Assembly (NCBI RefSeq): GCF_010731615.1
Contig: NZ_AP022618.1
Location: 1,488,001 to 1,552,000 of the forward strand
Direction of reading: 5' to 3'
Length of the DNA: 64,000 bases
Source: Mycolicibacterium insubricum
GTDB taxonomy: Bacteria; Actinomycetota; Actinomycetes; Mycobacteriales; Mycobacteriaceae
Below, one piece after another: positions 32,031 through 47,123 of this stretch; positions within the stretch are counted from its first letter, which is position 1, and each line of letters starts with the position of its first letter. The translations under genes and the position numbers were made by a program. A model generated the notes under the pieces. It saw only the letters and a program-made list of their open reading frames with translations. It was not told the DNA's origin and searched no databases.

Positions 32031-33665
<1,635 letters not shown>

Positions 33666-33679
33666 GCAGTAGCCACGGG

Positions 33680-33713
33680 AACACCCTCGGTCCGCTTGGG
33701 CCGGGGGTGTTTT
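33680..33713 (+). terminator. intrinsic terminator after groEL1
   Basis: A 14-base-pair stem, AACACCCTCGGTCC (33680-33693) with GGGCCGGGGGTGTT (33698-33711), has two G-U pairs, a four-base loop and a short T-run to 33713. It is the clearest intrinsic terminator in the window. Confidence 0.85.
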
Positions 33714-33791
33714 CGATTCTTCACGCGATCGAGACCTGGACGCGCCCCCTTCCGCGCCGGTTCCAGACCCACGGTGGGCAACAATCCGAAG

Positions 33792-35243
33792 ATGCCGGAA
33801 CCGCGCGGGATATCCCGCCAGGAATTTCTCCGCGGCGCCGTGGGTGCCGCGGGCGCTGTGGCCGCCGGAGCGCTCTTCGGACTGCCCCGAGCGGGCGCCG
33901 ATCCGAGATCCGACGCCTGGGCAGAGCTCTCCAACGCCATCCAAGGGCAGGTGAAACTCCCCGACAACGGGCAGTTCGACGCCAGCAAGGCCGTGTTCAA
34001 CACCAACTTCGACGGTATGAAGCCGGCCGCCGTCGTCACCCCGACCTCGTTGGCCGACGTGCAGAAGACGATGGAGTTCGCCGCCAAGCGTGGTGCCAAC
34101 GTGGCACCGCGCGGCGGCGGTCACTCCTACGTCGGTGCGTCGACGGCCAACGGCGTCATGGTCCTGGACCTGCGGCAACTGCCCGGCGACATCGCCTACG
34201 ACGCCGGCACCGGCCACGTCACGGTGACGCCGGCGACGCACCTCTACGACATCCACCAGGTATTGGCGGCGAACGGCCGGGGGATCCCGACCGGAACCTG
34301 CCCGACGGTCGGTGCGGGTGGCCACGCGCTCGGCGGCGGGCTGGGCGCCTCGTCGCGGCACGCCGGGCTGCTCTCCGACCAACTGGTGTCGGCGACGGTG
34401 GTGCTGCCAGGCGGGAACGCCGTCACCGCGTCGTCGGCGCAGAACCCGGATCTGTTCTGGGCGTTACGCGGCGGTGGCGGCGGCAATTTCGGCGTGACGA
34501 CATCACTGACCTTCGCGACCTTCCCGGTCGGCGACGTCGACGTGGTGAACCTGCACTACCCGCTGCAGGCGTTCCCGCAGGTGCTACTCGGTTGGCAGAG
34601 CTGGCTGCGCACCGCCGACCGCAACAGTTGGGCGCTCGTCGACGCCGGCAACGACCCGCGGAATCCCGACTGCCGGATCCTGGCGACCTGTCCGGTGGGC
34701 ACCGGTGGCGCCGTCGCGGCCGCGCTGACCAAGGCGGTGGGGGCGCAACCCGCCGCGACGGACACTCGCACCTTCAATCACCTGGACCTGGTGAAGTATC
34801 TCGCCGCCGACAACCTCAACCCGGCGCCGCTCGGCTACGTGGGCGGCTCCGATGTGTTCCAGACGATCACCCCGGCCGCCGCGCAGGGGATCGCCGCTGC
34901 CTTCAACGCGTTCCCGAGCGGAGCCGGGCGGCCGTTGGTGATCATGCACGCGCTCGACGGAGCGCTGGCCACCGTCGCGCCGGGTGCGACGGCATTCCCG
35001 TGGCGGCAGCACTCCGCACTGGTGCAGTGGTACGTGGAAACCTCCGGATCACCGGCGGCGGCCACCGGGTGGCTGGCGACCGCGCACCAGGCGGTCGCTT
35101 CGGCGTCGGTGGGCGCCTACGTGAACTATCTCGAGGTGAACCAACCCACGTCGCGGTATTTCGGCGCGAACCTGTCCCGGCTCAGCGCCACCCGGGCCAA
35201 GTACGACCCGAACCGGATCATGTTCTCCGGCCTGAACCTCTGA
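33792..35243 (+). CDS. exported FAD-linked oxidase, berberine-bridge type
   Basis: This 483-residue VAO/BBE-family flavoenzyme has a signal peptide (about 1-36, ending PRAGA). The motif SRQEFLRG resembles a Tat signal but has only one arginine of the pair. The FAD domain includes RGGGHSYVGAS, where H111 is the expected covalent attachment site. C170 in GTCPTVGAGGHALGGG lies 59 residues later, the spacing seen in enzymes with bicovalent FAD. The C-terminal BBE segment ends TRAKYDPNRIMFSGLNL. I chose the ATG at 33792; a longer in-frame start would begin in the groEL1 terminator. Such enzymes oxidise sugars, alcohols or natural products; the substrate is unknown. Confidence 0.82.
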   Translation: MPEPRGISRQEFLRGAVGAAGAVAAGALFGLPRAGADPRSDAWAELSNAIQGQVKLPDNGQFDASKAVFNTNFDGMKPAAVVTPTSLADVQKTMEFAAKRGANVAPRGGGHSYVGASTANGVMVLDLRQLPGDIAYDAGTGHVTVTPATHLYDIHQVLAANGRGIPTGTCPTVGAGGHALGGGLGASSRHAGLLSDQLVSATVVLPGGNAVTASSAQNPDLFWALRGGGGGNFGVTTSLTFATFPVGDVDVVNLHYPLQAFPQVLLGWQSWLRTADRNSWALVDAGNDPRNPDCRILATCPVGTGGAVAAALTKAVGAQPAATDTRTFNHLDLVKYLAADNLNPAPLGYVGGSDVFQTITPAAAQGIAAAFNAFPSGAGRPLVIMHALDGALATVAPGATAFPWRQHSALVQWYVETSGSPAAATGWLATAHQAVASASVGAYVNYLEVNQPTSRYFGANLSRLSATRAKYDPNRIMFSGLNL

Positions 35244-35278
35244 CGGCACACGTGACAAAGTCCCCAAAAGAGCGGATC

Positions 35279-35292
35279 GTGATGGGCATCAC
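35279..35292 (+). promoter_or_regulatory. inverted repeat upstream of the diiron gene
   Basis: GTGATG-GG-CATCAC is a perfect 6-2-6 palindrome, 29 bases before the ATG at 35322. It may be an operator, but no regulator is adjacent and the promoter is unclear. Confidence 0.3.
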
Positions 35293-35321
35293 ATTCATGC
35301 CGGGTGCCGAGGGGGCAGGCC

Positions 35322-36422
35322 ATGACCACCAAAGACAAATACACCGAAATCCCGGAATCGTATTCGTGGGGCGTCCCGTGCTCCGGCGAAACGCGCTTCA
35401 CCTGGGAGTACGACGACAGCCGGGCGAGGCTGCTTTCCCTGTACCAGAAGGGTAAGGACAAGCAATGGGATGCCCAGTCGCGCATTGACTGGTCCACCGA
35501 CGTCGACCCGATGAACCCGCTCGGGCTGCCCGACGAGGTGCTGCCGCTGTTCGGCAGCCCGATGTGGGAGTCCGCCGACGACAAGCTGCGGGCCGCCATG
35601 CGCCAGCACTCCCAAGCCTGGCAGTTCTCCCAGTTCCTGCACGGCGAGCAGGGCGCGATGATGTGCGCGGCCAAGATCGTCGAAGTGGTCCCGGACATGG
35701 ACGCCAAGTTCTACGCCGCCACCCAGACCATGGATGAGGCCCGGCACGTCGAGACGTTCTCCCGGTTCCTGCAGGAGAAGATCGGCCTGGTCTACCCGAT
35801 CAACAAGAACCTGACCGCGCTGCTGGACGACACCCTGCGCGATTCCCGTTGGGACATGCCGTATCTGGGCATGCAGGTGCTCGTCGAGGGGCTGGCGCTG
35901 GCTGCGTTCGGGGTGCAGCGCGACCTCGCCGCGCCGGGGTCACTGGGCAAGCAGGTGCTGGCGTATGTCATGCAGGACGAGGCGCGCCACGTCGCGTTCG
36001 GTCGCATCTCGCTCAAGGACTACTACCGCGAGCTGACCGACTCCGAACGCAACGATCGCGAGGAGTTCGTCGTCGACGCCTGCTACCTGATGCGCGACCG
36101 GTTCCGCGGCGAGGAGGTGTTCGAGACCCTGGGCCTCGACGTCCAGGCGTGTGCCCAATGGGTCGACACCGCACCCATGATGGCCCAGTTCCGGGCGTAC
36201 CTGTTCAGCCGCATCGTGCCGATCGTCAAGGACATCGGGCTGTGGGGACCCAAGGTGCAGATGGCCTTCGCCGACATGGGGGTTATCGACATGGCCGGCA
36301 TCGACATCGACGCCCTGATGAAGGCCGACGAGGACCAGGCCGAATCGCTGGAGCAGGCGCACGCCGAGATGGCCCGCCGCGCCGTCGAGGTCGACGGGAT
36401 CATTGCGACCGGCGCGGCCTGA
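35322..36422 (+). CDS. ferritin-like diiron protein, probable oxygenase
   Basis: This 366-residue all-helical protein has a complete set of diiron ligands of the ferritin/ribonucleotide-reductase type: E109 (HGEQG), E139 and H142 (DEARHVE), E189 (LVEGL), E220 and H223 (DEARHVAFG). The two DEARH motifs are near-repeats. The arrangement is that of diiron oxygenases or hydroxylases rather than storage ferritins. I prefer the ATG at 35322; an in-frame GTG at 35304 is possible. It stands alone between the flavin oxidase and the gluconate genes, so context gives no substrate. Confidence 0.75.
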   Translation: MTTKDKYTEIPESYSWGVPCSGETRFTWEYDDSRARLLSLYQKGKDKQWDAQSRIDWSTDVDPMNPLGLPDEVLPLFGSPMWESADDKLRAAMRQHSQAWQFSQFLHGEQGAMMCAAKIVEVVPDMDAKFYAATQTMDEARHVETFSRFLQEKIGLVYPINKNLTALLDDTLRDSRWDMPYLGMQVLVEGLALAAFGVQRDLAAPGSLGKQVLAYVMQDEARHVAFGRISLKDYYRELTDSERNDREEFVVDACYLMRDRFRGEEVFETLGLDVQACAQWVDTAPMMAQFRAYLFSRIVPIVKDIGLWGPKVQMAFADMGVIDMAGIDIDALMKADEDQAESLEQAHAEMARRAVEVDGIIATGAA

Positions 36423-36429
36423 CGCCGGA

Positions 36430-37812
36430 TCAGACCACCAGACCCAGCAGCAGTACCCCGACCAGCCCGACCAGCGAGACCGCGCATTCCATCACCGACC
36501 AGGTCTTGAAGGTCTGGGTGACGGTCATGCCGAAATACTCCTTCACCAGCCAGAAGCCGGCGTCGTTCACATGCGACAGGAACACCGAACCGGCGCCGAT
36601 CGCCAGCACCATCAGTGCCAGATGGGTGGAGCCGATCCCGGTCGCCAGCGGCGCCATGATGCCGGCCGCGGTGATCGTCGCGACCGTCGCGGACCCGGTC
36701 GCCACCCGGATGACGGCAGCCACCAGCCAGCCGGCCAACAGCAACGGCATCCCCGAATTCGCGATGCCGGAACCGATCACCTGACCGACACCGGAATCCA
36801 CCAGCGTCTGCTTGAAACCGCCACCCGCGCCGACGATCAGCAGGATCGACGCCACCGGCGCGAACGCCGCGCCGGTCTCCGCCGAGACCTCGCTCGCCGA
36901 GCGGCCCAGCCGCAGGCCCAGCACCCACATCGCGTACAGCGCGGTGATCAGCAGCGCCTGCAGCGGGGTGCCGATGAACTTCAGCACCCCACCGATCGGG
37001 TGGTCTGCGTACCCGGTCGCCTTCACCGTCGTCATCAGCAGCATCAGCACGACGGGCATCAGCACCACCGACAGCGCCACGCCGAACGCCGGCCGAGGAC
37101 CGGTGGGCTCGCGGTCGGCAGGGCCGAGCAGCTTGTCGGACGCCCCGATCGGCACCCAGCGGGCCATCGGCTTGGCCAGTAACGGGCCCGCGATCGCCAC
37201 CGTCGGGACGGCGACCAGCAGTCCGAACGCCAGCGTCAGCCCCAGATTCGCCTCCAACCCGGCGATCGCGATCAGCGGCCCGGGATGCGGTGGCACCAGA
37301 CCGTGCAGCGCGGACAGGCCGGCCAGCGCCGGAATACCGACCAGAATGACCGGCAGTTTCGCCCGCTTGGCCACCAGCATCACGATCGGGATCAACAGCA
37401 CCACACCGACTTCGAAGAACAGCGGGATGCCGATGATGAACGCGGCGAAGGCCATCGCCCACGGCAGCCGCCGGACCGGCGTCTTCGCCAGGATGGTGTC
37501 GACGATCTCGTCGGCGCCGCCGGATTCGGTGAGGAACCGGCCGATCACCGCGCCGAGCACGATCAGCACCCCTACGTCACCGACCGTCTTGCCCAGGCCC
37601 GCGGTGAACGCGGTGAACGAGTCCTCGAAACCGACGTTCGCCGTGACCGCCATCGTCGCGGAGCCGAGCATCAGCGCGAAGAACGGGTGCATCTTGGCCC
37701 AGATGATGAGCGCGACGATCAACAGGATCGAGACGGCCGCCGCAACGACCAGCTGGGTGGTACCGGCGGCGGGCCTCGCCGCCTCGGCCAGGACGGACGC
37801 CACGGCAATCAC
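36430..37812 (-). CDS. gntP: gluconate:H+ symporter, GntP family
   Basis: This 460-residue inner-membrane transporter has about 12 hydrophobic segments. The segments MHPFFALMLGS, IGIPLFFEVGVVLLIP and HGLVPPHPGPLIAI are the hallmarks of the GntP family. The reverse-strand GTG at 37812 is preceded by TAGGGT six bases upstream. It is divergent from a sugar kinase of the gluconokinase type. Together they would import gluconate and feed it as 6-phosphogluconate into the pentose phosphate pathway. Confidence 0.88.
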   Translation of the reverse strand: MIAVASVLAEAARPAAGTTQLVVAAAVSILLIVALIIWAKMHPFFALMLGSATMAVTANVGFEDSFTAFTAGLGKTVGDVGVLIVLGAVIGRFLTESGGADEIVDTILAKTPVRRLPWAMAFAAFIIGIPLFFEVGVVLLIPIVMLVAKRAKLPVILVGIPALAGLSALHGLVPPHPGPLIAIAGLEANLGLTLAFGLLVAVPTVAIAGPLLAKPMARWVPIGASDKLLGPADREPTGPRPAFGVALSVVLMPVVLMLLMTTVKATGYADHPIGGVLKFIGTPLQALLITALYAMWVLGLRLGRSASEVSAETGAAFAPVASILLIVGAGGGFKQTLVDSGVGQVIGSGIANSGMPLLLAGWLVAAVIRVATGSATVATITAAGIMAPLATGIGSTHLALMVLAIGAGSVFLSHVNDAGFWLVKEYFGMTVTQTFKTWSVMECAVSLVGLVGVLLLGLVV

Positions 37813-37818
37813 CGGCTC

Positions 37819-37853
37819 ACCCTATGTCGTAGACGGGCCGCGGCGCTTAGCAT
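37819..37853. promoter_or_regulatory. divergent -10 hexamers for gntP and the FGGY kinase
   Basis: The 49-base gap holds TAGGGT on the reverse strand (37819-37824), six bases before the gntP GTG. On the forward strand it holds TAGCAT (37848-37853), eight bases before the kinase ATG. Both transcripts would be leaderless. Little room remains for an operator that is not also core promoter. Confidence 0.5.
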
Positions 37854-37861
37854 CGAGCACG

Positions 37862-39367
37862 ATGACCGAGCCGACGTCCGTCCCCGAGGCCCGCCCCGTG
37901 CCGCTGTCCGATGCCGTCCCCCCGTTCGTGGTGGCCATCGACATCGGTTCGGGTTCCACGCGCAGCTGTGTTTACGACGCGTACGCCCGGCCGATCGAGA
38001 AGCATCTGGTCAAGGCCGACCATGCGTTCACCGAACGTGCCGACGGCACCGCCGAGATCGACGCCGACCAGGTCGTCCGCGAGGTGGCATCGGTGCTCAC
38101 CGCGGCCATCGCCGGCATCGATGCGGGGGTCATCGCGGGCGTCGCGATGGACACCTTCGCCTCCTCACTGGTCTGCGTGGACGCCGCCGGGACCGCGCTG
38201 ACGCCGTGCTTCACCTACGCCGATTCCCGGCCGGCCGGCCAACTGGCGCTCCTGCGCACCCAGCTGGACGAGGAAGGTGTGCACCAGCGCACCGGCACTC
38301 GGCTGCACACCAGCTATCACCCGGCGCGGTTGCGCTGGCTGCGTGACACCCATCCCGGTATCGCCTCTCGCACCGCGAAATTCCTGTCGCTGGGGGAGTA
38401 CGTCTACGCGCGGCTGGCCGGGATCGAGGGCGCCGCAACCGCGACGACGGCGTGGGCGGGCATGCTCAACCGCCACACCCACGCGCTCGACGAGGAACTG
38501 CTGGCGGTGCTCGGCGTCGACGCCGACCGGTTCGCGCCGATCGTCGACCCGGACCGGCCGATCACCGACGTCGCACCGGCGGTGGCGGCGAACTGGCCGG
38601 CGCTGGCCGGTGCGGCGTGGTTCCCGGCGATCCCCGACGGCTACGCCTCCAACATCGGGGTGGGCGCCGACACTCCGACGACGGCTGCGCTTTCGGCGGC
38701 GACCTCCGGGGCGATCCGGGTGCTGGTCGACGGCACACCCGATCGACTCCCGCCGGGGCTGTGGTCCTATTCCGTTTCGCGATCTCAGGCCATCGTCGGC
38801 GGGGCGCTCAACGATGTCGGCCGAGCGATGAACTGGCTGCAGGCCACCCTGGCCCCGGTCACCGCGGAACAGATCCACGACGCTCTGACCGGCCCCGCCC
38901 GGCCGAATGTTCCACTGGTGCTGCCGTTCCTGACCGGCGAACGGGCGACCGGCTGGGCCGGCGACGCGCGCGCCGCGATCACCGGGATGTCTTCGTCGAC
39001 GACGCCGACCGACATCTGGCGTGGCGTCGCCGAGGGCGTCGCCATCTCGTATGCCCGGGTCTTCGAACAGCTCCGTCGGGTCAACCCCGACGTGCAGCGG
39101 GTGATCGCATCCGGTGGGGTGACCGGTCACTACCCGGGCCTCATGCAGGTCGTCGCGCACGCCATCGGCTTCCCGGTGCAAGTAGTCGACGTCAAACGGG
39201 TCACCATGCGCGGCGCCGCGGTACTCGCCCTGTCGACGTTGGCTCCGGAAACGCCGCCGGCGCGGATCCCACAGACCGACCTCACCGTCCCCAACCCCAC
39301 CGAACGGGCGTACTACGACGATCTGCTGCGGCGGTTCACCGAGTTGTACGACTCGGTGATCCGGTAA
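37862..39367 (+). CDS. gntK: FGGY-family carbohydrate kinase, probable gluconokinase
   Basis: This 501-residue sugar kinase has the two-lobed ASKHA fold. The N-lobe phosphate loop is VVAIDIGSGSTRS, the catalytic aspartate is in FTYADSR, and the C-lobe adenosine motif is VIASGGVTGHYPGLMQVV. FGGY kinases vary in substrate. Gluconate is inferred from the divergent gntP transporter. The ATG at 37862 has a TANNNT hexamer eight bases upstream; an in-frame extension runs antisense through gntP and is rejected. Its last 55 bases overlap the 3' end of the opposite-strand ligase gene. Confidence 0.82.
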   Translation: MTEPTSVPEARPVPLSDAVPPFVVAIDIGSGSTRSCVYDAYARPIEKHLVKADHAFTERADGTAEIDADQVVREVASVLTAAIAGIDAGVIAGVAMDTFASSLVCVDAAGTALTPCFTYADSRPAGQLALLRTQLDEEGVHQRTGTRLHTSYHPARLRWLRDTHPGIASRTAKFLSLGEYVYARLAGIEGAATATTAWAGMLNRHTHALDEELLAVLGVDADRFAPIVDPDRPITDVAPAVAANWPALAGAAWFPAIPDGYASNIGVGADTPTTAALSAATSGAIRVLVDGTPDRLPPGLWSYSVSRSQAIVGGALNDVGRAMNWLQATLAPVTAEQIHDALTGPARPNVPLVLPFLTGERATGWAGDARAAITGMSSSTTPTDIWRGVAEGVAISYARVFEQLRRVNPDVQRVIASGGVTGHYPGLMQVVAHAIGFPVQVVDVKRVTMRGAAVLALSTLAPETPPARIPQTDLTVPNPTERAYYDDLLRRFTELYDSVIR

Positions 39368-40692
39368 CGCCGCGGCTTGCCCTCGCCGAGCTCGGCGAGC
39401 GTGCCGACGGTGTTCACCGGCACCGTCGCCCCGAAAATCAGGCGCAGCCGTGCGGCGATGTCTGCCGGATCCCCGCCGCACACCGTCGTGCGCACCTCGT
39501 CGCCGGACTGCTCGACCACCCAGCCCAGCGCCCCCGCGTCCTGCAACTGCTGGGTGAGGTCGACACACGGGACCGCGGATCCGTCGGCGGCGGTGAAGAC
39601 GATGTCCTCGCGGCCCTCCAGATCGGCGATGGCCAAGCCATCCCCGAGATCGACCAGCCGACCGTAGTCTCCGGTGCGGTAACGCACCAGCGGCAGCAGC
39701 GGATTGCAGCCGGAGGTGACGACGAGCTCGCCGCGTTCCCCCGGCGGCACCGGTGCGCCGTGGCGATCGACGACCTCCACGTGGATCCGGGTGGGCAGCA
39801 GGCGAAACGGCCCGCCGTCGGGGCTGACCGCGATGGGCCTCGTCTCGTGCAGGCCGTAGATGTCGAGCACGGGCACCCCGAAACGGTCCCGCAACGCCGC
39901 GCGCAGCCCGGCGGCCAGGTGCTGTGCGCCGGAGACCACGGCCAGCGGGTGCAGGTCGGCCGCGGCCGGGCGCTCCAGCAGCGCGGCCAGGCTCGACGGG
40001 CTGCCACTGAGTACCTGCGGATCCCACCGGCGCAGGTAGGCGTCACGAGCATCGGGATCCCAGTCCCGCGGATCCAGATTCAGCCGAGCCATCGCTGCGT
40101 CACCGAACCCCGGTATCAGCGACGCATAGCTGAATGCCTGACGCTGCCAGACCAGCAGTGCCAGTGCCAGCCGATCCGGATCCGGGGACCAGTCGACACC
40201 GCGGGAGGCGAGCAGTGCCACCAGCAGCCAGAAGGTTCGGGCCACGTCCTCGATATCGTCGGGAATCATCAGCGCCGCGCCGGTGGTTCCGGAACTCGAT
40301 CCGGTCACCATCCGGCTGAGATCGGCGTCCAACGGCACGAAGGCGGCGATATCGCCCCGCAGGTCAGCGCGGGAGATCAGCGGAAAATCGTTCAGCTCAA
40401 CAAGATTCGGATAGGACCGGTAGGCCGGTAGCCGCCGGGCCACCGCCAGGTGGTCGGTGAGCCAACCGGCGGTGGACAACGGCTCGCGGGCCCGGGCCAC
40501 CGCCACGGCGTCGAGCCGGTGGCCGGCCCGGTGCCGCCAGCGCGGAGCCCCGGGATGCGTCAGGACCTCCTCGAGCACCCGCCTTTGGGTGCTTGTCATG
40601 CCCGGCCACCGCTGCGCGTCGGTGAGCTCGACGGCGGCACCGTGTGCATAGTCGGTCAGTGCCAACGGGTCCGGGACGTCGGGGTCACTCAT
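39313..40692 (-). CDS. PaaK/CapK-like adenylate-forming ligase (ANL family)
   Basis: This 459-residue member of the acyl-adenylate family resembles phenylacetate-CoA ligase. The phosphate-binding loop is TGSSSGTTGA (about residues 130-139), the aromatic-acid motif is YGLHETRPI and the hinge-side aspartate is in YRTGDYGRL. The C-terminal lid domain is short and ends in a basic tail (NRRSRSS). It is the last gene of the five-gene MoxR operon. Its ATG overlaps the upstream stop by eight bases, so it is coupled to it. Such enzymes activate a carboxylate as an adenylate and pass it to CoA or another acceptor; neither acid nor acceptor can be predicted. Its tail overlaps gntK by 55 bases. Confidence 0.75.
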   Translation of the reverse strand: MSDPDVPDPLALTDYAHGAAVELTDAQRWPGMTSTQRRVLEEVLTHPGAPRWRHRAGHRLDAVAVARAREPLSTAGWLTDHLAVARRLPAYRSYPNLVELNDFPLISRADLRGDIAAFVPLDADLSRMVTGSSSGTTGAALMIPDDIEDVARTFWLLVALLASRGVDWSPDPDRLALALLVWQRQAFSYASLIPGFGDAAMARLNLDPRDWDPDARDAYLRRWDPQVLSGSPSSLAALLERPAAADLHPLAVVSGAQHLAAGLRAALRDRFGVPVLDIYGLHETRPIAVSPDGGPFRLLPTRIHVEVVDRHGAPVPPGERGELVVTSGCNPLLPLVRYRTGDYGRLVDLGDGLAIADLEGREDIVFTAADGSAVPCVDLTQQLQDAGALGWVVEQSGDEVRTTVCGGDPADIAARLRLIFGATVPVNTVGTLAELGEGKPRRYRITESYNSVNRRSRSS

Positions 40693-41293
40693 GGGTGTAC
40701 CTCGCCGCCGCTTCCTGGGCGCGCCGTTCCCGAAGTCGGCGCTGCACCTCCATCCGGTGCAGATGCTCGGCCGCGGCGACCGCCAGCTCCCGATCGCGGC
40801 TCAGCGAGTCCAGCCGGACGGCGAAAGTCTGTGCCGCCTCCGGTGTCTCACCGGCCGGATGGTATCCGCACCACAGCAGGAAGAGCCGGGCGGCCTCCTC
40901 GCGGCGGTCCGGTTCGGCCAGCCACCGCGCCGGCGGCACCACGGGTGCCAGGCGCAGCCCGAGTGCGGCGACGGCGGTCAGACCGCTGAGCGGCTGACCG
41001 GCCACCAACCACAACCCGACGGCCGCGCCGCCACGGGCCTCCGGATAGCCGGCCAGTGCCCGGACCTCCGGGGTGTCGAGCACGTGCGCGCCCAGCACGT
41101 CGGCGGCCAATGCGGGCAACGAAACCCGGTCATCGAGGAAATCGCGCGGCAGCCCGCCGAGCCGGCCGGTGACCTCGGCAAGGGGCGGCCCGGCGGACAG
41201 CCGCCGCCACTGGGCCTGCTCGTCGTAGCCCAGGGTGAACCAGGCCGCCAGCGCCGGCGGCAATTCGTCTGCGGGCGGACGGTATTCAGCCAC
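40685..41293 (-). CDS. hypothetical helical protein of the MoxR operon
   Basis: I do not recognise this 202-residue protein. It is predicted mostly alpha-helical, with no signal peptide or membrane segment. The C-terminal third (about 130-200) is a charged, probably coiled-coil stretch rich in Arg, Glu and Ala, preceded by EEAARLFLLWCGYHPAGETPEAAQ. I place the start at the GTG at 41293, where it overlaps the VWA gene's stop by eight bases; a longer frame has no better start. Its place between the VWA and ligase genes suggests an adaptor or scaffold. That is inference. Confidence 0.55.
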   Translation of the reverse strand: MAEYRPPADELPPALAAWFTLGYDEQAQWRRLSAGPPLAEVTGRLGGLPRDFLDDRVSLPALAADVLGAHVLDTPEVRALAGYPEARGGAAVGLWLVAGQPLSGLTAVAALGLRLAPVVPPARWLAEPDRREEAARLFLLWCGYHPAGETPEAAQTFAVRLDSLSRDRELAVAAAEHLHRMEVQRRLRERRAQEAAARYTHE

Positions 41294-42998
41294 GACGGAT
41301 CCGTTCGGCCAAGCGCGCGCAGGCAGCGGGCGCATCGGCCATCGAGTCCAGGTACTCCACGTCGTAGCCGGCGGCGGTCGCGGTCTTCGCGGTGGAGCGT
41401 CGAGCGTCCAGCAGAATCAGCGTCGCGGTGTCGCATTTGGTGCCCACCGCCGCGGCCACCCCGGCGTACTCCTGCTGGCCCTCGCCGAAGAACGACGCCA
41501 GTCCGTCGTCGGAGATCACCGCGAGGTGCCGGCGCACACCCCCGCCCGGCCGGGCGTAGCGGTTGGCCAGCAGGTCCAGCGGAAAGCTGGTGCCGTGGCC
41601 GAAATAGTGCAGCAGGGCTGAGATCGCCTCGCTGCGGTTGGCGGTCGGCCGCGGCGTGCCGGCCACCTGGCCCGGCCCGGAGAACGAGGTCACCCGAACC
41701 CGGCCACCTCCGGCGAGCACCGACTGCACCAGAATCGCCCCGGCCAGCAGGGCCGAGGAATCCCGCTCGGGCCGGGGCATCGATCCCGACGAGTCGATGT
41801 ACAGATCCAGTTCGACCGGTTCGTCCCGGTGCTGCGGCTCGTCCTCCCCGGCCTCCCGGCGCCGGGTCGTCACCCCCGGGATCACCCATGGGCTGGCCGC
41901 AAACGTCGCCGCCCAGTCCAACAGCGCGGGGTCGTCGTCGACCTCCCAGACCGCCAGCGCGCCGGGCACATCACAGGATTGCGGAGCCGGGCCCGCCGGT
42001 TCGCGAAACGGCCGAATCCACGGCCGTGCCCGGTCGGTGTACCACGCGGTGAGCACATCGAGGACCGGCATCGTCGCGTACAACTGGAGTGTCTCGGCCA
42101 GCCCGTAGCCCTGTGCACCGGGTGGCTCATCGGAAGCACCGATGCCGCCGCGGCTCTCCAACGCGGGATGCACCGGCAACTCCCGCAACCGCGGGTCGCG
42201 CAGCACATCGGCGAGTTCGGCGGCGGTCGGCGGGTCCGCAGTGGCGTCGCCGGCGCACGGCACCGTGCTCAGTGTCGACGATTCCGATTCTGTGGCAAGC
42301 AGATACGGCGCGGCGATCAGCCCGAACCGCAGTGCTCCGCGCACCGGGTCGTTGGCGAAACTGCGCGCGGCGCGCGCCAGCAGCCGGGAGTCGAGCGCCG
42401 GGTCGGCGACCGCGATCGTCTCGGTCCCGTCGGTGCGCGGCGGTGGCGCGGCCGGGACCTCGGTGGGGCAGAGGGTGCCGTCGGGAAGCCCCCACAGATC
42501 CTCACAGGCGCGGAGAATGACCCAGAACAGCGGATCCGGCCGCTGGGTGTAGAGAATGCGCCACAGCCGCACCATGCCGGGCTCGGCGCCGGGGTTGCGG
42601 CGGCGTTGCAGGTCGACGACCCGGGTGTTGATCAGCAGATCGCTCCAGAGATTGGCGGCCAGCGCCGCGTTGTCCGCCAACCGCGTAACCGTGCCCACAC
42701 TGCTGGCGGTCAGAGCGCGGGCCATCTGCTGGGTGATCAGCAGCGAGCCGCGCCGGGTGGACGGCGACAGCACATGGTGGCCGATCTCGTGGGCGAAGAC
42801 GGTGGCCAGTTCGGTGTCGACCCCCAGACGGGCGGCCAGCACCGGGTCGATGGTGATCGACGGCGGGAAGCTGAACCAGGCGAAGCTGGGCGCCCCCGCG
42901 GCCGGGGCCTGGCGGGCGTCGTGCAGCCGCACACCCCACAGTGCCTGTGCGTCCTCCCACGCTCGGCGCTGCGTGTCGTTCAGGGCGGCGAAAGTCAC
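41286..42998 (-). CDS. putative metallopeptidase-like plus VWA-domain protein
   Basis: This 570-residue protein combines two recognisable parts. Near the N-terminus, H70-E-I-G-H74 is a zinc-peptidase HExxH motif within VFAHEIGHHVLSP. In the C-terminal third, D402-S-S-G-S406 is the MIDAS metal site of a von Willebrand A domain (LYIDSSGSM). This order matches the DUF2201-type family, a metallopeptidase-like domain followed by a VWA-like domain, commonly encoded beside MoxR ATPases. The start is the GTG at 42998, overlapping the upstream stop by four bases. The likely role is to be remodelled by, or to direct, the MoxR ATPase; whether it cleaves protein is unknown. Confidence 0.7.
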   Translation of the reverse strand: MTFAALNDTQRRAWEDAQALWGVRLHDARQAPAAGAPSFAWFSFPPSITIDPVLAARLGVDTELATVFAHEIGHHVLSPSTRRGSLLITQQMARALTASSVGTVTRLADNAALAANLWSDLLINTRVVDLQRRRNPGAEPGMVRLWRILYTQRPDPLFWVILRACEDLWGLPDGTLCPTEVPAAPPPRTDGTETIAVADPALDSRLLARAARSFANDPVRGALRFGLIAAPYLLATESESSTLSTVPCAGDATADPPTAAELADVLRDPRLRELPVHPALESRGGIGASDEPPGAQGYGLAETLQLYATMPVLDVLTAWYTDRARPWIRPFREPAGPAPQSCDVPGALAVWEVDDDPALLDWAATFAASPWVIPGVTTRRREAGEDEPQHRDEPVELDLYIDSSGSMPRPERDSSALLAGAILVQSVLAGGGRVRVTSFSGPGQVAGTPRPTANRSEAISALLHYFGHGTSFPLDLLANRYARPGGGVRRHLAVISDDGLASFFGEGQQEYAGVAAAVGTKCDTATLILLDARRSTAKTATAAGYDVEYLDSMADAPAACARLAERIRRG

Positions 42999-43609
42999 TG
43001 CTGCCAACGGTATAACCACAGGTGATAGGACGTGGCGATGCGCCCGAACAGGCGCCCCGGGGCGGCCGGAGCGGGTGCGGGGGTCGATTGGACACGGGCG
43101 CCGAACACATCGCAACTGACCTGCCACCACTGCGATCCGGTGCGGACTTCGACCGTGCCGGTCCCGGTGGTCCTCACCTCCTCGGGTGGTTGCAGCCAGG
43201 GCCCGCCGAAGCCACGGAAGCCGCCGGCCACGCCGACCAGAGCTTCGGCGCCGGGAAAGTGAAACGGGTCGAGCCCTTGGCCGGCCAAAAACGACGCCCC
43301 GGTGCCGGGTGGCAGTCCGAGGGCGGCCTCGGTGACCTCGGGGGATAGTCCGGCGGCGCGGGACAGTGCGTCCTCGCGCAGCCGCACCACCCCGGCGCGC
43401 CACGCCGCCAGCACGGCGACCGACCGCAGCACCGCCGGGTCGTCACGCACAAGACCCGTTGCCGCGCACAGGAAATAGCGGTATCGAGCGACGTCCCCGG
43501 ACCAGCCGCGGACCCGATCGACGGTGTCGCGCAACTCCGCGGGCGCGTCGGCGGGAAGATCGTCGGCACCCGGGACGCCGGCGTTGACGGCGAAGCCTGC
43601 GGTGATCAT
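42995..43609 (-). CDS. hypothetical protein between MoxR and VWA genes
   Basis: I do not recognise this 204-residue protein. Residues 15-105 look helical. Residues 110-175 are Gly/Trp-rich and probably beta structure, including FRGFGGPWLQPPE and GSQWWQVSCDVFGA. The C-terminus is SYHLWLYRWQQ. No signal or membrane helix is visible. Its ATG at 43609 lies within the MoxR stop (ATGA) and its stop lies within the VWA start (GTGA), so all three are made in step. It may be the third partner of a MoxR-VWA system. Confidence 0.55.
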   Translation of the reverse strand: MITAGFAVNAGVPGADDLPADAPAELRDTVDRVRGWSGDVARYRYFLCAATGLVRDDPAVLRSVAVLAAWRAGVVRLREDALSRAAGLSPEVTEAALGLPPGTGASFLAGQGLDPFHFPGAEALVGVAGGFRGFGGPWLQPPEEVRTTGTGTVEVRTGSQWWQVSCDVFGARVQSTPAPAPAAPGRLFGRIATSYHLWLYRWQQ

Positions 43610-45171
43610 CGCGCGAGGTCGAGCCAGCGGCGATAGTTGGTGTAGCGCTGATGCAGGTACTTCAGTGCCAGCAGGTCGTCGTAGTCGCGGCCGTAGAGCT
43701 TTCCGGTGTCGGCGATCCTGCGGATCTCGGTCTCCACCATGGTGATCCGCCCGGCCACCGCAACCGCGTCGAGGTGATCGATCCCGGCATCGAACTGGAC
43801 GAGGAGGGCACCGACCGGATCGTCGGAATCCCGCCCCAGCGCGGAGAATTGACGATTCGAGTCCGCCCACAGGTCGGCCAGCCAGCTCACCGAATCCAGG
43901 CCGAGTTCCTGATCGGAGCCGCCGTCGAAACGAGGATGGCGTCGGTTCGGCAGGAGTTTGCCCCGCAGCACGAACGGCAGCACCGCGCCGACGTCGTCCA
44001 CGCCGACCTCGGCCTGACCCCGGAACCAGGCGATGGCCTTCGCGTAGGTGATCAGTACCAGGATCGCCCGCACCGAGATGCTCGTCACGGTCTGCGCACC
44101 CGGGTCGACCTCCAGGTCGGCACCGGAGTTCCGTTCGATGATCTCGCCGATGTCGATCCCGGCGGTTGCCGCGGTGTCCTTGGTGCGGTACTCGAAGCGG
44201 CGGCCGCCGTGCTGGACGAACTCGAAGTGCGACACGAAGAATTCGATGCGGCGCCGGACCGGGTCGGGGACCGGGACAGCGCGGATCGCGGCGGCGATGT
44301 CACGGCGGTCCTGTCCGCTGAGCACCAGTTCCGGCGGCACGTGCTCCTCCGGGCGTTCGTCGCTCTCCACCCGGGCGATCAGCTCGTCGAGGAACCGGGA
44401 GTTGAAACCGAGCGCAGCGACGGTGACGTCCATCCGATCGCGCAGCGCCTGGATGACCGCGAAGGTGCCCCCACCGGCGTCGTCGTTGGCGGTGAAAAAC
44501 CAACTGTCGATACCGGTGTCGCCGGTGGTGGACAGTGACTGGTCGTAGGTTTCCACGTACCCCTCGGCCACCATGGTCAGCAGTGCCGACTGCGTCTTGG
44601 TGGGGATCCGGTTGTACTCGTCGATGATCTTGACCGGCAGTCGCAGCCAGTTGCGCCAGGCGACCCGGACCTCGTCGAGGCGTTCGGCGCTGATCAGGTC
44701 CTTGGGCAGCGGTGTGCCGACGAGATCACTGACCGTCAACTGGGGCTGGCCCTGGACCACCGCGGTGCGCACCCGCTGCGGATCGGTGCCGGCCAGCACG
44801 CCGAGCACGACGGCCAGGCTGGTCTTGCCGCGGCCCGGGCCGCCGATCAGCAGGCAGCGGCCGCCGACGGCGAAACTCAGCAGCGGCAACAGCACATTGG
44901 ATGAATAGGACTGGTCACCGCCGAGTTCCAGCGCCGCTCCGGCATCGCCGACCGGAACGGACAGTGCGGTGTCGCCGCTGAAGCCGATGTCGTAGAAGGG
45001 GGAGATGACCGCGTTGTTGACGATCCAGAAATACGCCTGACGCAGCCGCTCATCCAGCGACGGTGCCGGCGGCCGGTGCTCGCCGAACAGATCGGCGGCG
45101 GTCAACGGGGACGCGGTGGCGGCCTGCGGACGGGTCGGCGATTGCGACACGTGCCCCCAGTGGTCCGCCAT
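43606..45171 (-). CDS. MoxR-family AAA+ ATPase
   Basis: This 521-residue chaperone-type ATPase leads the five-gene operon. Walker A is GGPGRGKTS (110-118, K116). Walker B is IIDEYNR (D184, E185), and the sensor-1 asparagine is N229 in WFFTANDD. The C-terminal region from about 290 holds the lid helices and an extension longer than in minimal MoxR proteins. MoxR ATPases usually act with VWA proteins to insert metals or assemble complexes, and one such VWA gene lies two genes on. The ATG at 45171 has TAGACT six bases upstream. Confidence 0.85.
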   Translation of the reverse strand: MADHWGHVSQSPTRPQAATASPLTAADLFGEHRPPAPSLDERLRQAYFWIVNNAVISPFYDIGFSGDTALSVPVGDAGAALELGGDQSYSSNVLLPLLSFAVGGRCLLIGGPGRGKTSLAVVLGVLAGTDPQRVRTAVVQGQPQLTVSDLVGTPLPKDLISAERLDEVRVAWRNWLRLPVKIIDEYNRIPTKTQSALLTMVAEGYVETYDQSLSTTGDTGIDSWFFTANDDAGGGTFAVIQALRDRMDVTVAALGFNSRFLDELIARVESDERPEEHVPPELVLSGQDRRDIAAAIRAVPVPDPVRRRIEFFVSHFEFVQHGGRRFEYRTKDTAATAGIDIGEIIERNSGADLEVDPGAQTVTSISVRAILVLITYAKAIAWFRGQAEVGVDDVGAVLPFVLRGKLLPNRRHPRFDGGSDQELGLDSVSWLADLWADSNRQFSALGRDSDDPVGALLVQFDAGIDHLDAVAVAGRITMVETEIRRIADTGKLYGRDYDDLLALKYLHQRYTNYRRWLDLAR

Positions 45172-45177
45172 GGGCTG

Positions 45178-45183
45178 AGTCTA
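45178..45183 (-). promoter_or_regulatory. -10 hexamer for the MoxR operon, overlapping the nadR stop
   Basis: On the reverse strand TAGACT lies six bases before the MoxR ATG. Its first three bases are the nadR stop codon TAG (45181-45183). If used, it gives the operon its own leaderless transcript despite lying 9 bases behind nadR. Confidence 0.45.
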
Positions 45184-46224
45184 TCGGCGCGGCAGGGGGC
45201 TGTCGGCACGCATTTCCAGCGGGTCGGCGAACCGGAACGCCTCCGGCAGCCGGGCTTCGACGGCGCGGACCGCCGCGGCCAGCCGGTGTCGCCGGTCACC
45301 GCGCAGCTCGGTCCACGGCACCGGCTGGCCGGCCAGCACCTCGCGGAACCGTCGCGCCATCTCCGGGCGGATGTGTTCGCCGTCGCGCATGCCGTCGGCG
45401 ACGAACGGGATCTCGTCACCGGTCAGCAGATACAGCAGCGGGGGATGGTCCAGCGCGCGCCGGTAAAGCGCTGCCGGCCAGCGCCCGCGGTAGCGCTCGA
45501 ACCACACCGCGGTGGCCAGCACGTCGGTGTCGCAGACCAGGAGCGGGCGCGGCGCGCGACGCGCCGCGGCGGCTTCGGCAGCGAGCTGGCGGTCGACGAT
45601 GAGCTCGAATTCGTCGTCGCGCCAGGGGGCGTGCAGCCCGCCGGCGCGGATCTCGGTGTATTCCCTGCCGTACTCGGGCACCCACACGGTGCCCAGTACC
45701 CCGGCGAGATCGGCGGCCAGCGTGCTGGTACCGGTGGATTCGGCGCCGAGCACCACGACCCGCGGGGTCAACGCGCGGCGCACCGCCGCCGGCAGCAGAT
45801 GCCAGTGCCCGGCGACGTCGGCGCGGACCGCACGCCCGGACACCGGGATTTCCGCGCGGTCGGCCCGCACCCACTCGGCGTCGAGGCGCCGGGCCAGCTC
45901 GGCACCGTAGTCGTCGCCGGTGAACACCGCGTCCACCGGCGCGTCCAGCAGAGCCGAGATCACCCGCATGTGCGCGTCCCAGGCCGCCGGCGAACCGTAG
46001 TCGACCTCGGCCTCGTCGTAGCCGCCGACCACGGTGACCGTCGGGTGCTCCTCGCGCAGCCATCCCATCCGGGTCTGCAGCGAGACGGATTCCACCTCCG
46101 AGGCCAGTACCTGCACCGTCACCCGCCCGCAGTCCATCGTGGCCCGGCGGATCAGCGCGCCGTGACCGGCGTGCAACGGGTAGAACTTGCCGAGCACCAG
46201 GCCGTGGCCGTACCGAGCGGTCAC
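45181..46224 (-). CDS. nadR: NadR-like NMN adenylyltransferase / ribosylnicotinamide kinase
   Basis: This 347-residue bifunctional enzyme would turn imported nicotinamide riboside into NMN and then NAD. The N-terminal nucleotidyltransferase domain shows LGKFYPLHAGHGALI. The kinase domain starts near residue 155, but its P-loop reads G160-A-E-S-T-G-T-S-T168: the usual Walker lysine is threonine. I recall similar P-loops in other actinobacterial NadR proteins, so this may be a group feature. No N-terminal repressor domain is present, unlike E. coli NadR. The GTG at 46224 overlaps the pnuC stop. Confidence 0.82.
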   Translation of the reverse strand: MTARYGHGLVLGKFYPLHAGHGALIRRATMDCGRVTVQVLASEVESVSLQTRMGWLREEHPTVTVVGGYDEAEVDYGSPAAWDAHMRVISALLDAPVDAVFTGDDYGAELARRLDAEWVRADRAEIPVSGRAVRADVAGHWHLLPAAVRRALTPRVVVLGAESTGTSTLAADLAGVLGTVWVPEYGREYTEIRAGGLHAPWRDDEFELIVDRQLAAEAAAARRAPRPLLVCDTDVLATAVWFERYRGRWPAALYRRALDHPPLLYLLTGDEIPFVADGMRDGEHIRPEMARRFREVLAGQPVPWTELRGDRRHRLAAAVRAVEARLPEAFRFADPLEMRADSPLPRR

Positions 46225-46820
46225 CGGTCGGACATCGCATTCTCCCGGGTCAGCGTCGCGCGCCAGCTGCGGTAGCCCGCGACGGCGATGCCGATGAAGA
46301 TCAGGTACAAAAGCGCGGTCGGGACGAGTCCCTTGGCCAGGTAGAGGCCGACGTAGCCGGCGTCGACGGTGATCCACACCAGCCAGTTGTGCAACCAGCG
46401 CTTGTTGAGCATGAACTGCGCGGTCAGGCTCAGCCCGGTGGTGGCTGCGTCGGCGAGCTGGGTGGTGGAATCGGTCCAGGTGTCCAGCACCCACCACAGC
46501 CCGGCCGTCAGCGCCACGGTGGCGGCGGCCAGCGGCAGGACGGCACCGCGCGGCGTCGACCGCGGGGCGATCCGGTCGTCATCGAGGTGGGTGCCGCGCA
46601 ACCAGCCGACCCAGCCCGCGACACCGAGACCGATGTACACCAGCTGCAACCCGGCCGCCGCATACAGCGCCGCACCGGTGAACACCACGAAGAACACCGA
46701 ACTGTTGAGCAGGCCCAGCGGGAAGTTCCAGATGCTGCGCCGCGCGGCAAGTGCCACGCAGATCGCACCGGTGACGAAACCGAACAGCTCCAGCCAGTGC
46801 GCGCCGAGCCATTCACTCAC
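46221..46820 (-). CDS. pnuC: nicotinamide riboside transporter PnuC
   Basis: This 199-residue membrane protein has about seven hydrophobic segments. The segments SIWNFPLGLLNSSVFF and YIGLGVAGWVGWLRG carry the Trp/Asn motifs of PnuC, a facilitator that depends on phosphorylation of its substrate inside the cell. It is translationally coupled to nadR, whose kinase domain would supply that trapping step. As far as I recall M. tuberculosis lacks this pair at this location. I saw no NAD-linked riboswitch upstream. Confidence 0.85.
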   Translation of the reverse strand: MSEWLGAHWLELFGFVTGAICVALAARRSIWNFPLGLLNSSVFFVVFTGAALYAAAGLQLVYIGLGVAGWVGWLRGTHLDDDRIAPRSTPRGAVLPLAAATVALTAGLWWVLDTWTDSTTQLADAATTGLSLTAQFMLNKRWLHNWLVWITVDAGYVGLYLAKGLVPTALLYLIFIGIAVAGYRSWRATLTRENAMSDR

Positions 46821-46832
46821 CGCGCCATCTTG

Positions 46833-47123
46833 TCAGGCGCTGCGGCGCACCCCGCGCTTGATCATCAGCTCCCGCTCGGATTCGCTGAGCCCACCCCAGA
46901 TGCCGTAGGGCTCGCCGACCCGCAGGGCGTGCGTGCGGCATTCGGTCAGTACCGGGCAGCTCTGGCACATCGCCTTGGCCCGATTCTCCCGCGCGGCGCG
47001 TTCCCGGCCGCGTTCGCCGTCGGGGTGGAAGAACATCGAGGAATCGACCCCTCGGCACAGGCCCTTCATCTGCCAATCCCAGATGTCGGCGTTGGGTCCG
47101 GGTAGTTGCTGCGGCTGTGGCAT
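46833..47123 (-). CDS. whiB3: iron-sulfur redox regulator WhiB3
   Basis: This 96-residue Wbl protein binds a redox-sensitive [4Fe-4S] cluster and, in M. tuberculosis, regulates lipid and redox genes with SigA. The cluster cysteines are C23, C53, C56 and C62 (AMCQSCPVLTEC). The G-I/V-W-G-G turn is present as YGIWGGLSESER, with a basic C-terminal DNA-binding tail. The start MPQPQQLPGPNADIW matches Rv3416. A purine-rich AAAGGGG (47131-47137) precedes the ATG. It is divergent from the helical-repeat gene, as in M. tuberculosis. Confidence 0.95.
   Translation of the reverse strand: MPQPQQLPGPNADIWDWQMKGLCRGVDSSMFFHPDGERGRERAARENRAKAMCQSCPVLTECRTHALRVGEPYGIWGGLSESERELMIKRGVRRSA

Follow-up and report, generated by a model that had tools for sequence, protein, structure and literature searches.

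AAA+ ATPases of the MoxR type form rings that act on client proteins together with VWA partners; the CoxD-CoxE and CbbQ-CbbO pairs follow this principle. ANL enzymes form acyl-adenylates, and NadR makes nicotinamide mononucleotide (NMN) from nicotinamide riboside (NR) and nicotinamide adenine dinucleotide (NAD) from NMN. RavA-ViaA is a further pair of this kind, in which an AAA+ motor and its VWA partner jointly act on a client (PMC9489729). The MoxR-vWA ternary systems described by Kaur et al. 2020 (PMC7159879) comprise the VMAP, iSTAND, FtsH and beta-propeller systems; their MoxR proteins have the N-terminal motifs WxhapG and PsWRxa, and some of them carry zincin peptidases, radical SAM proteins, ligases or propellers. 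Here, we analysed a stretch of 64,000 nucleotides of Mycolicibacterium insubricum (assembly GCF_010731615.1, contig NZ_AP022618.1, positions 1,488,001 to 1,552,000; the window), in which five minus-strand genes encode a MoxR-type ATPase, an HExxH-VWA protein, a PaaK-like ligase and two unrecognised proteins, U1 and U2. These five families are one conserved set that travels together across phyla, and the set nearly implies NadR, whereas NadR does not imply the set. On balance, we consider it likely that the five genes encode the parts of a single protein machine, conserved and accessory, whose function relies on PnuC and NadR, the route that leads from NR via NMN to NAD. RavA-ViaA, CoxD-CoxE and CbbQ-CbbO differ in that they are pairs not known to include a ligase, U1, U2 or NadR. 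The genes of the window are arranged as follows:

46221..46820, minus strand: PnuC, nicotinamide riboside transporter, 199 residues (PF04973 at 2.6e-50, TIGR01528)
45181..46224, minus strand: NadR-like NMN adenylyltransferase / ribosylnicotinamide kinase, 347 residues, GTG start (PF13521, TIGR01526, GKFYPLHAGH motif)
43606..45171, minus strand: MoxR-type AAA+ ATPase, 521 residues, ATG start (AAA_3, AAA_lid_2, P-loop GGPGRGKT)
42995..43609, minus strand: U1, unrecognised partner in its short form, 204 residues, ATG start (no family above cut-off)
41286..42998, minus strand: HExxH (zincin-like) and C-terminal VWA protein, 570 residues, GTG start (M48 marginal; DSSGS motif)
40685..41293, minus strand: U2, unrecognised all-helical partner, 202 residues, GTG start (C-terminus of near-fixed length)
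39313..40692, minus strand: PaaK-like AMP-forming ligase, 459 residues, ATG start (AMP-binding at 1.5e-12)

The first-pass annotation had described five reverse-strand genes with overlaps of 4 or 8 bases, and the overlaps from MoxR through U1, VWA and U2 to the ligase are indeed 4, 4, 8 and 8 bases. This block is real and recurrent, but it had been drawn too narrowly: PnuC and NadR, which overlap by 4 bases, directly precede MoxR in the same orientation, and 9 bases separate NadR from MoxR.

Relatives of the locus were found by aligning the MoxR proteins of the window and of genome G457 against genome contigs; the best 80 of 296 loci were kept, and thus all counts lean towards close relatives. 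With G457 (L020) the collection comprises 81 loci, and 82 with the window; the genes were called by a simple script, so starts and lengths are approximate. Scanning the genome contigs with the VWA protein alone gave no confirmed relative. Using the window proteins as phmmer queries, MoxR was detected in 81, the VWA protein in 76, U1 in 73, U2 in 70 and the ligase in 70 of the 81 loci, and profiles built from these matches raised U1 to 79 and U2 to 73. Of the 71 loci that extend for 5.5 kilobases (kb) or more downstream of MoxR, 67 have all five families in the same order and on one strand. Because order and strand recur to this extent, the arrangement is not due to chance; the same neighbourhood count supports the earlier proposal that the two unknowns are dedicated partners of MoxR, the VWA protein and the ligase. 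The first-pass annotation would have been refuted by five genes that seldom co-occur, and the neighbourhoods show the opposite. The 67 complete loci span eight phyla: 36 belong to Actinomycetota in addition to G457, 20 to Pseudomonadota, three to Planctomycetota, two each to Spirochaetota and Acidobacteriota, and one each to Myxococcota, Gemmatimonadota and Chloroflexota; some of them carry further genes in between the five. The full set was not found at L067 (no ligase found), L097 (MoxR alone), L112 (no U2, no ligase) and L117. The set is a five-component, probably ATP-driven machine for which the family libraries searched hold no set name and of which two parts match no family above cut-off.

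The two upstream genes of the window resemble known nicotinamide riboside salvage components. PnuC passes its models (PF04973, 171.2 bits with a cut-off of 27.3; TIGR01528, 76.4 with a cut-off of 42.45), and NadR has the GKFYPLHAGH motif, matches PF13521 (AAA_28) at 8.3e-27 and TIGR01526 at 1.2e-48 over residues 7-309 of 347, where its score of 166 bits is below the equivalog cut-off of 341. When the neighbours of the 81 loci and the window were clustered, a NadR-like family ranked first (41/82) and PnuC second (19/82), followed by clusters confined to Janthinobacterium (13) and an ABC-transporter cluster (11) at scattered distances. A dedicated search within the fetched loci detected a NadR homologue in 60 and a PnuC homologue in 37 of the 81; the 80 named loci carry 44 taxon labels, and NadR is local in 29 of these. 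NadR is adjacent or nearly so in most loci (3.4 kb away in L061 and L068), and it is found in four arrangements: (i) upstream and co-directional in most Actinomycetota and one Kofleriaceae metagenome-assembled genome (MAG), (ii) downstream and co-directional in Janthinobacterium, Massilia, Spirochaetota, an Anaerolineales MAG and a gammaproteobacterium, (iii) upstream and divergent in Planctomycetota, Holophagae and a myxobacterium, and (iv) downstream and convergent in an acidobacterium and a myxobacterium. The linkage thus seems to have arisen repeatedly. Moreover, 14 of 16 tested genomes without a local NadR encode NadR elsewhere, and the two without any NadR are those of L097 and L112, both with incomplete clusters; the aligned NadR regions of L118 and L119 contain no stop. 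PnuC is present in 16 of 19 genomes tested and absent from those of L097, L112 and G457. NadR is otherwise scarce: among 120 Microbacteriaceae genomes it occurs in eight, i. e. in 4/4 MoxR-positive versus 4/116 MoxR-negative ones (Fisher p 8.5e-6), and a phylum sample has it in 6/198 genomes, including both known MoxR holders (Fisher p 7.7e-4), with the limit that both counts ignore shared ancestry and that G682 and G825, two of the four MoxR-positive Microbacteriaceae, may be close relatives.

Since the set nearly always accompanies NadR, its role probably involves NAD metabolism. NadR and PnuC could instead be incidental neighbours of a machine devoted to protein quality control unrelated to NAD, and NadR is in fact not near the operon in Pseudonocardiaceae (six loci), Schumannella (two) and G457. 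However, all nine of these genomes have NadR elsewhere, and the four arrangements as well as the Microbacteriaceae distribution also speak against mere proximity; we regard an incidental association as highly improbable. The near-strict association with NadR is the first directly testable handle on the function of the set, and the link to NAD, if true, would extend MoxR-VWA chaperones into pyridine-nucleotide metabolism. Whereas NadR elsewhere occurs without the set, here the set appears dependent on NadR.

Apart from the shared ancestry mentioned above, several observations weigh against a dependence on the PnuC-NadR route. As NadR of the window scores below the equivalog cut-off, it could act on a substrate other than NMN. 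The tests for NadR elsewhere covered 16 of the 21 loci that have no local copy, the other five being L073, L079, L081, L085 and L095. G457 has the five genes and NadR, yet no PnuC match, and L067, where no ligase was detected at the locus, has NadR matches split over three contigs. Three of the four NadR matches in MoxR-negative Microbacteriaceae are partial. NadR also works without the set: it is present in 22 of 151 Mycobacteriaceae genomes, 21 besides that of the window. Two planctomycete operons encode, between MoxR and U1, a protein with a C-terminal nucleoside-2-deoxyribosyltransferase-like domain (L073:1723-2832 and L094:10471-11493, of which L094 alone scores above cut-off); this protein may be a counterpart of the DRHyd domains found in conflict systems. 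Finally, among the 15 control loci with a distant MoxR-VWA pair (L021-L035, from two other actinobacterial families, f22 and f28), one has a ligase match at E<=1e-3 (L023, 4e-8), a looser search gave a weak U2 match in L022 (0.0017) and a second ligase match in L029 (0.0092), and several of the control contigs are short (L021, 3.3 kb).

None of these 15 control loci has U1, U2, NadR or PnuC at E<=1e-3, and HExxH is absent from all five control VWA proteins checked. The link to NadR seems to belong to the five-gene form. The control pair is often followed by a gene for a protein of about 281 residues, one copy of which gave no Pfam or NCBIfam match; it is possible that the distant pair of L021-L035 represents a separate unnamed system.

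The ATPase and the VWA protein can be assigned by their motifs. MoxR of the window matches AAA_3 with 28.7 bits (cut-off 27) and AAA_lid_2 with 34.4 bits (cut-off 22.7), and the P-loop GGPGRGK[T/S] is present in all 82 family members. The putative peptidase part of the VWA protein is suggested by a marginal match to Peptidase_M48 (20.7 bits, cut-off 20.3); an M48 match at E<=0.1 was obtained for 3/22 family members, and HExGH is kept in 76/76. Pfam gives no VWA match for the window protein, which has a visible DSSGS motif of the metal-ion-dependent adhesion site (MIDAS) at residues 402-406 of 570, with the VWA domain extending to the C-terminus; D.SGSM is kept in 71/76 members, and VWA_2 was matched at E<=0.1 by 5/22. 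The VWA family profile has no match in the PDB at E<=0.001.

With MoxR, a VWA protein and dedicated extra components, the set resembles the ternary systems of Kaur et al., from which it differs (PMC7159879) in the HExxH motif inside the VWA protein, the PaaK-like ligase and the linkage to NadR and PnuC. A search of the main text of that paper found nicotinamide once and NadR, NMN, HExxH and bpX not at all. The first-pass annotation had related the block to MoxR-VWA ternary systems proposed to act in conflict or quality control, and one can imagine a relative of the VMAP, iSTAND, FtsH and beta-propeller systems in which MoxR and the VWA protein set a threshold and NadR and PnuC restore NAD after a depleting response. 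That zincin peptidases, radical SAM genes, ligases and propellers occur in the published systems too (PMC7159879) would fit this idea. However, the MoxR motifs of these systems, searched with a regular expression built from the wording of the paper, are found in 0/82 MoxR proteins, as is the GXXXTAKS P-loop, and the stretch of about 168 residues from the start of the MIDAS motif to the end is too short for a propeller to follow the VWA domain in the same chain. The best PADLOC match, that of MoxR at E 0.023, is not significant, the other four proteins of the window have none at E<=1, and 0/22 VWA-protein family members match at E<=0.01. MoxR was not found in the plasmid and phage collections and not confirmed in viral contigs; the VWA protein has no match in the phage collection and U2 none in the plasmid collection. 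Moreover, the MoxR proteins of the 80 kept loci are 46-72% identical to that of the window, a strong conservation, and the five-gene core is constant rather than hypervariable. Membership in the conflict systems is unsupported by motifs, PADLOC and mobile-element collections, and we consider this interpretation unlikely; rather than an effector of phage defence, the set appears to be machinery for assembly or modification.

The ligase of the window shares the adenylation core motif with PaaK-like ANL ligases such as phenylacetate-CoA ligase and the DVU_1553 family: it matches AMP-binding with 47.4 bits (cut-off 29.9; 1.5e-12), the motif Y[RND]TxD is present in 67/67 family members, and the best relative of the family profile in the PDB is the phenylacetate-CoA ligase 9s3l (4.3e-23). 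It differs from them in scoring under the cut-offs of all 18 NCBIfam models listed, including NF045666, which it matches at 1.8e-22. A convergent plus-strand open frame at 36812-39367, sugar-kinase-like by our reading, shares the 55 bases at its end with the 3' end of the ligase gene; the last residues of the ligase are not conserved in the family.

For U1 and U2, the searches of Pfam, NCBIfam and PADLOC gave nothing above cut-off, with Pfam matches far below it only, and neither family profile has a PDB match at E<=0.001; the Pfam search proposed in the first-pass annotation thus left both proteins without a family. Scanning 73 U1 members against the family library gave isolated weak matches only; among 68 U2 members, DUF4158 was matched by eight (best 4e-5, treated as weak) and Rad21_Rec8 by two. 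A bpX profile was matched by 0/73 U1 and 0/68 U2 members and VMAP by none, with the presence of bpX models (a Pfam name) and of a VMAP model in the library being unverified. U1 has invariant W, G, R, A, G and D columns and is, at approximate starts, about 306-421 residues long outside the clade of the window, as compared to 204 in the window. The structure model of the U1 homologue in L089 has a predicted local distance difference test score (pLDDT) of 96.7, and its residues 207-323 align weakly to beta-propellers, so that the U1 tail weakly resembles part of a propeller. U2 is modelled confidently as helical, with no match in the PDB. The C-terminus of U2 is of nearly fixed length: exactly six residues follow the last strongly conserved alanine in 65 of 68 members and five in the other three. 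The standard deviation of this tail length is 0.2, as compared to 0.9 for MoxR, whose tail is also short and fairly fixed, 4.6 for the ligase, 6.9 for the VWA protein and 12.6 for U1. The last residue, in the 70 members with a stop, is E in 43, Y in 12, V in 11, D in two, H in one and S in one; for the 20 genes that do not overlap the ligase start, it is E in ten, Y in seven and V, H and D in one each. A C-terminus so defined in length suggests that some partner binds or modifies U2 there. We rejected a Pup-like conjugation site at a C-terminal glutamate, the tail length being fixed and the final residue variable, and dropped a Glu-Tyr crosslink like that of pyrroloquinoline quinone (PQQ) or mycofactocin, because some tails lack an aromatic residue and a radical SAM gene is found at only 4/81 loci.

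Based on these features, the machine dependent on PnuC and NadR may be pictured as follows. MoxR would form the usual AAA+ ring, and the HExxH-VWA protein could be its adaptor, presenting or clipping a client by means of its MIDAS and zinc sites. U1 and U2 would be dedicated adaptor or client subunits, U2 offering its tail of near-fixed length, and the ligase would activate a carboxylate as an acyl-adenylate; the modifying step proposed for it in the first-pass annotation is plausible. The machine would most likely make or consume an NR- or NMN-containing species, with NadR returning the moiety to NAD, or else assemble a client using that species. A specific version, which we consider quite improbable, is that the carboxylate adenylated by the ligase belongs to the system itself, the C-terminus of U2 being a candidate, and that the complex of MoxR and the VWA-zincin transfers or processes it, releasing or using NMN or NR and in this way requiring NadR.

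The genes added to the loci vary by clade, and the five core genes stay. A radical SAM gene is present at the operon in four of the 81 loci, from distant taxa (L086, L096, L102 and L116), two of them with the gene between VWA and U2 and two with it immediately ahead of MoxR. Together with a cation-efflux-like gene in L071 and L110, this is reminiscent of a maturation machine, comparable to the Mg-chelatase BchI-BchD or CoxD-CoxE, that would build or insert a cofactor derived from pyridine nucleotides, the ligase activating a carboxylate and the HExxH-VWA protein handling a metal or the client enzyme; the AAA+/VWA architecture, the adenylating ligase and the dependence on NadR are in line with this view as well. 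However, no client enzyme is conserved among the clustered neighbours, radical SAM was not found in the other 77 loci, and no chelatase model was matched above its cut-off, so we give this explanation only a small chance. Ten of the 13 Janthinobacterium loci (L078, L083, L084, L088, L091, L098, L100, L101, L104 and L115) encode a further unrecognised protein, of 155-163 residues, between MoxR and U1, and L111 has a GNAT gene.

The block had been called accessory, and this is supported by the distribution of the VWA protein, which was found in one of 301 Mycobacteriaceae genomes, that of the window itself, a single contig of 4.58 Mb; the 151 genomes examined for NadR lie, by their handles, among these 301. 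The nearest named proteins are from M. insubricum (U1, 96%) and M. fallax (U1, 67%; U2, 70%), and the latter, which is not known to be among the 301, also has U1- and U2-like proteins. In a FastTree phylogeny of MoxR, VWA protein and ligase (66 taxa, 1527 columns), the window groups with two Schumannella (support 1.0) inside a mostly Microbacteriaceae clade and apart from Pseudonocardiaceae. In the same-genus relative L142, other genes lie between the groEL-like gene and the whiB-like one (names by reading). Given this placement in the tree and the different content in L142, the simplest reading is that the window copy was probably gained horizontally. The content of the whole groEL-like to whiB-like interval (33000-47123 in the window) varies among the same-genus relatives L142 and L145, and it looks like an insertion hotspot.

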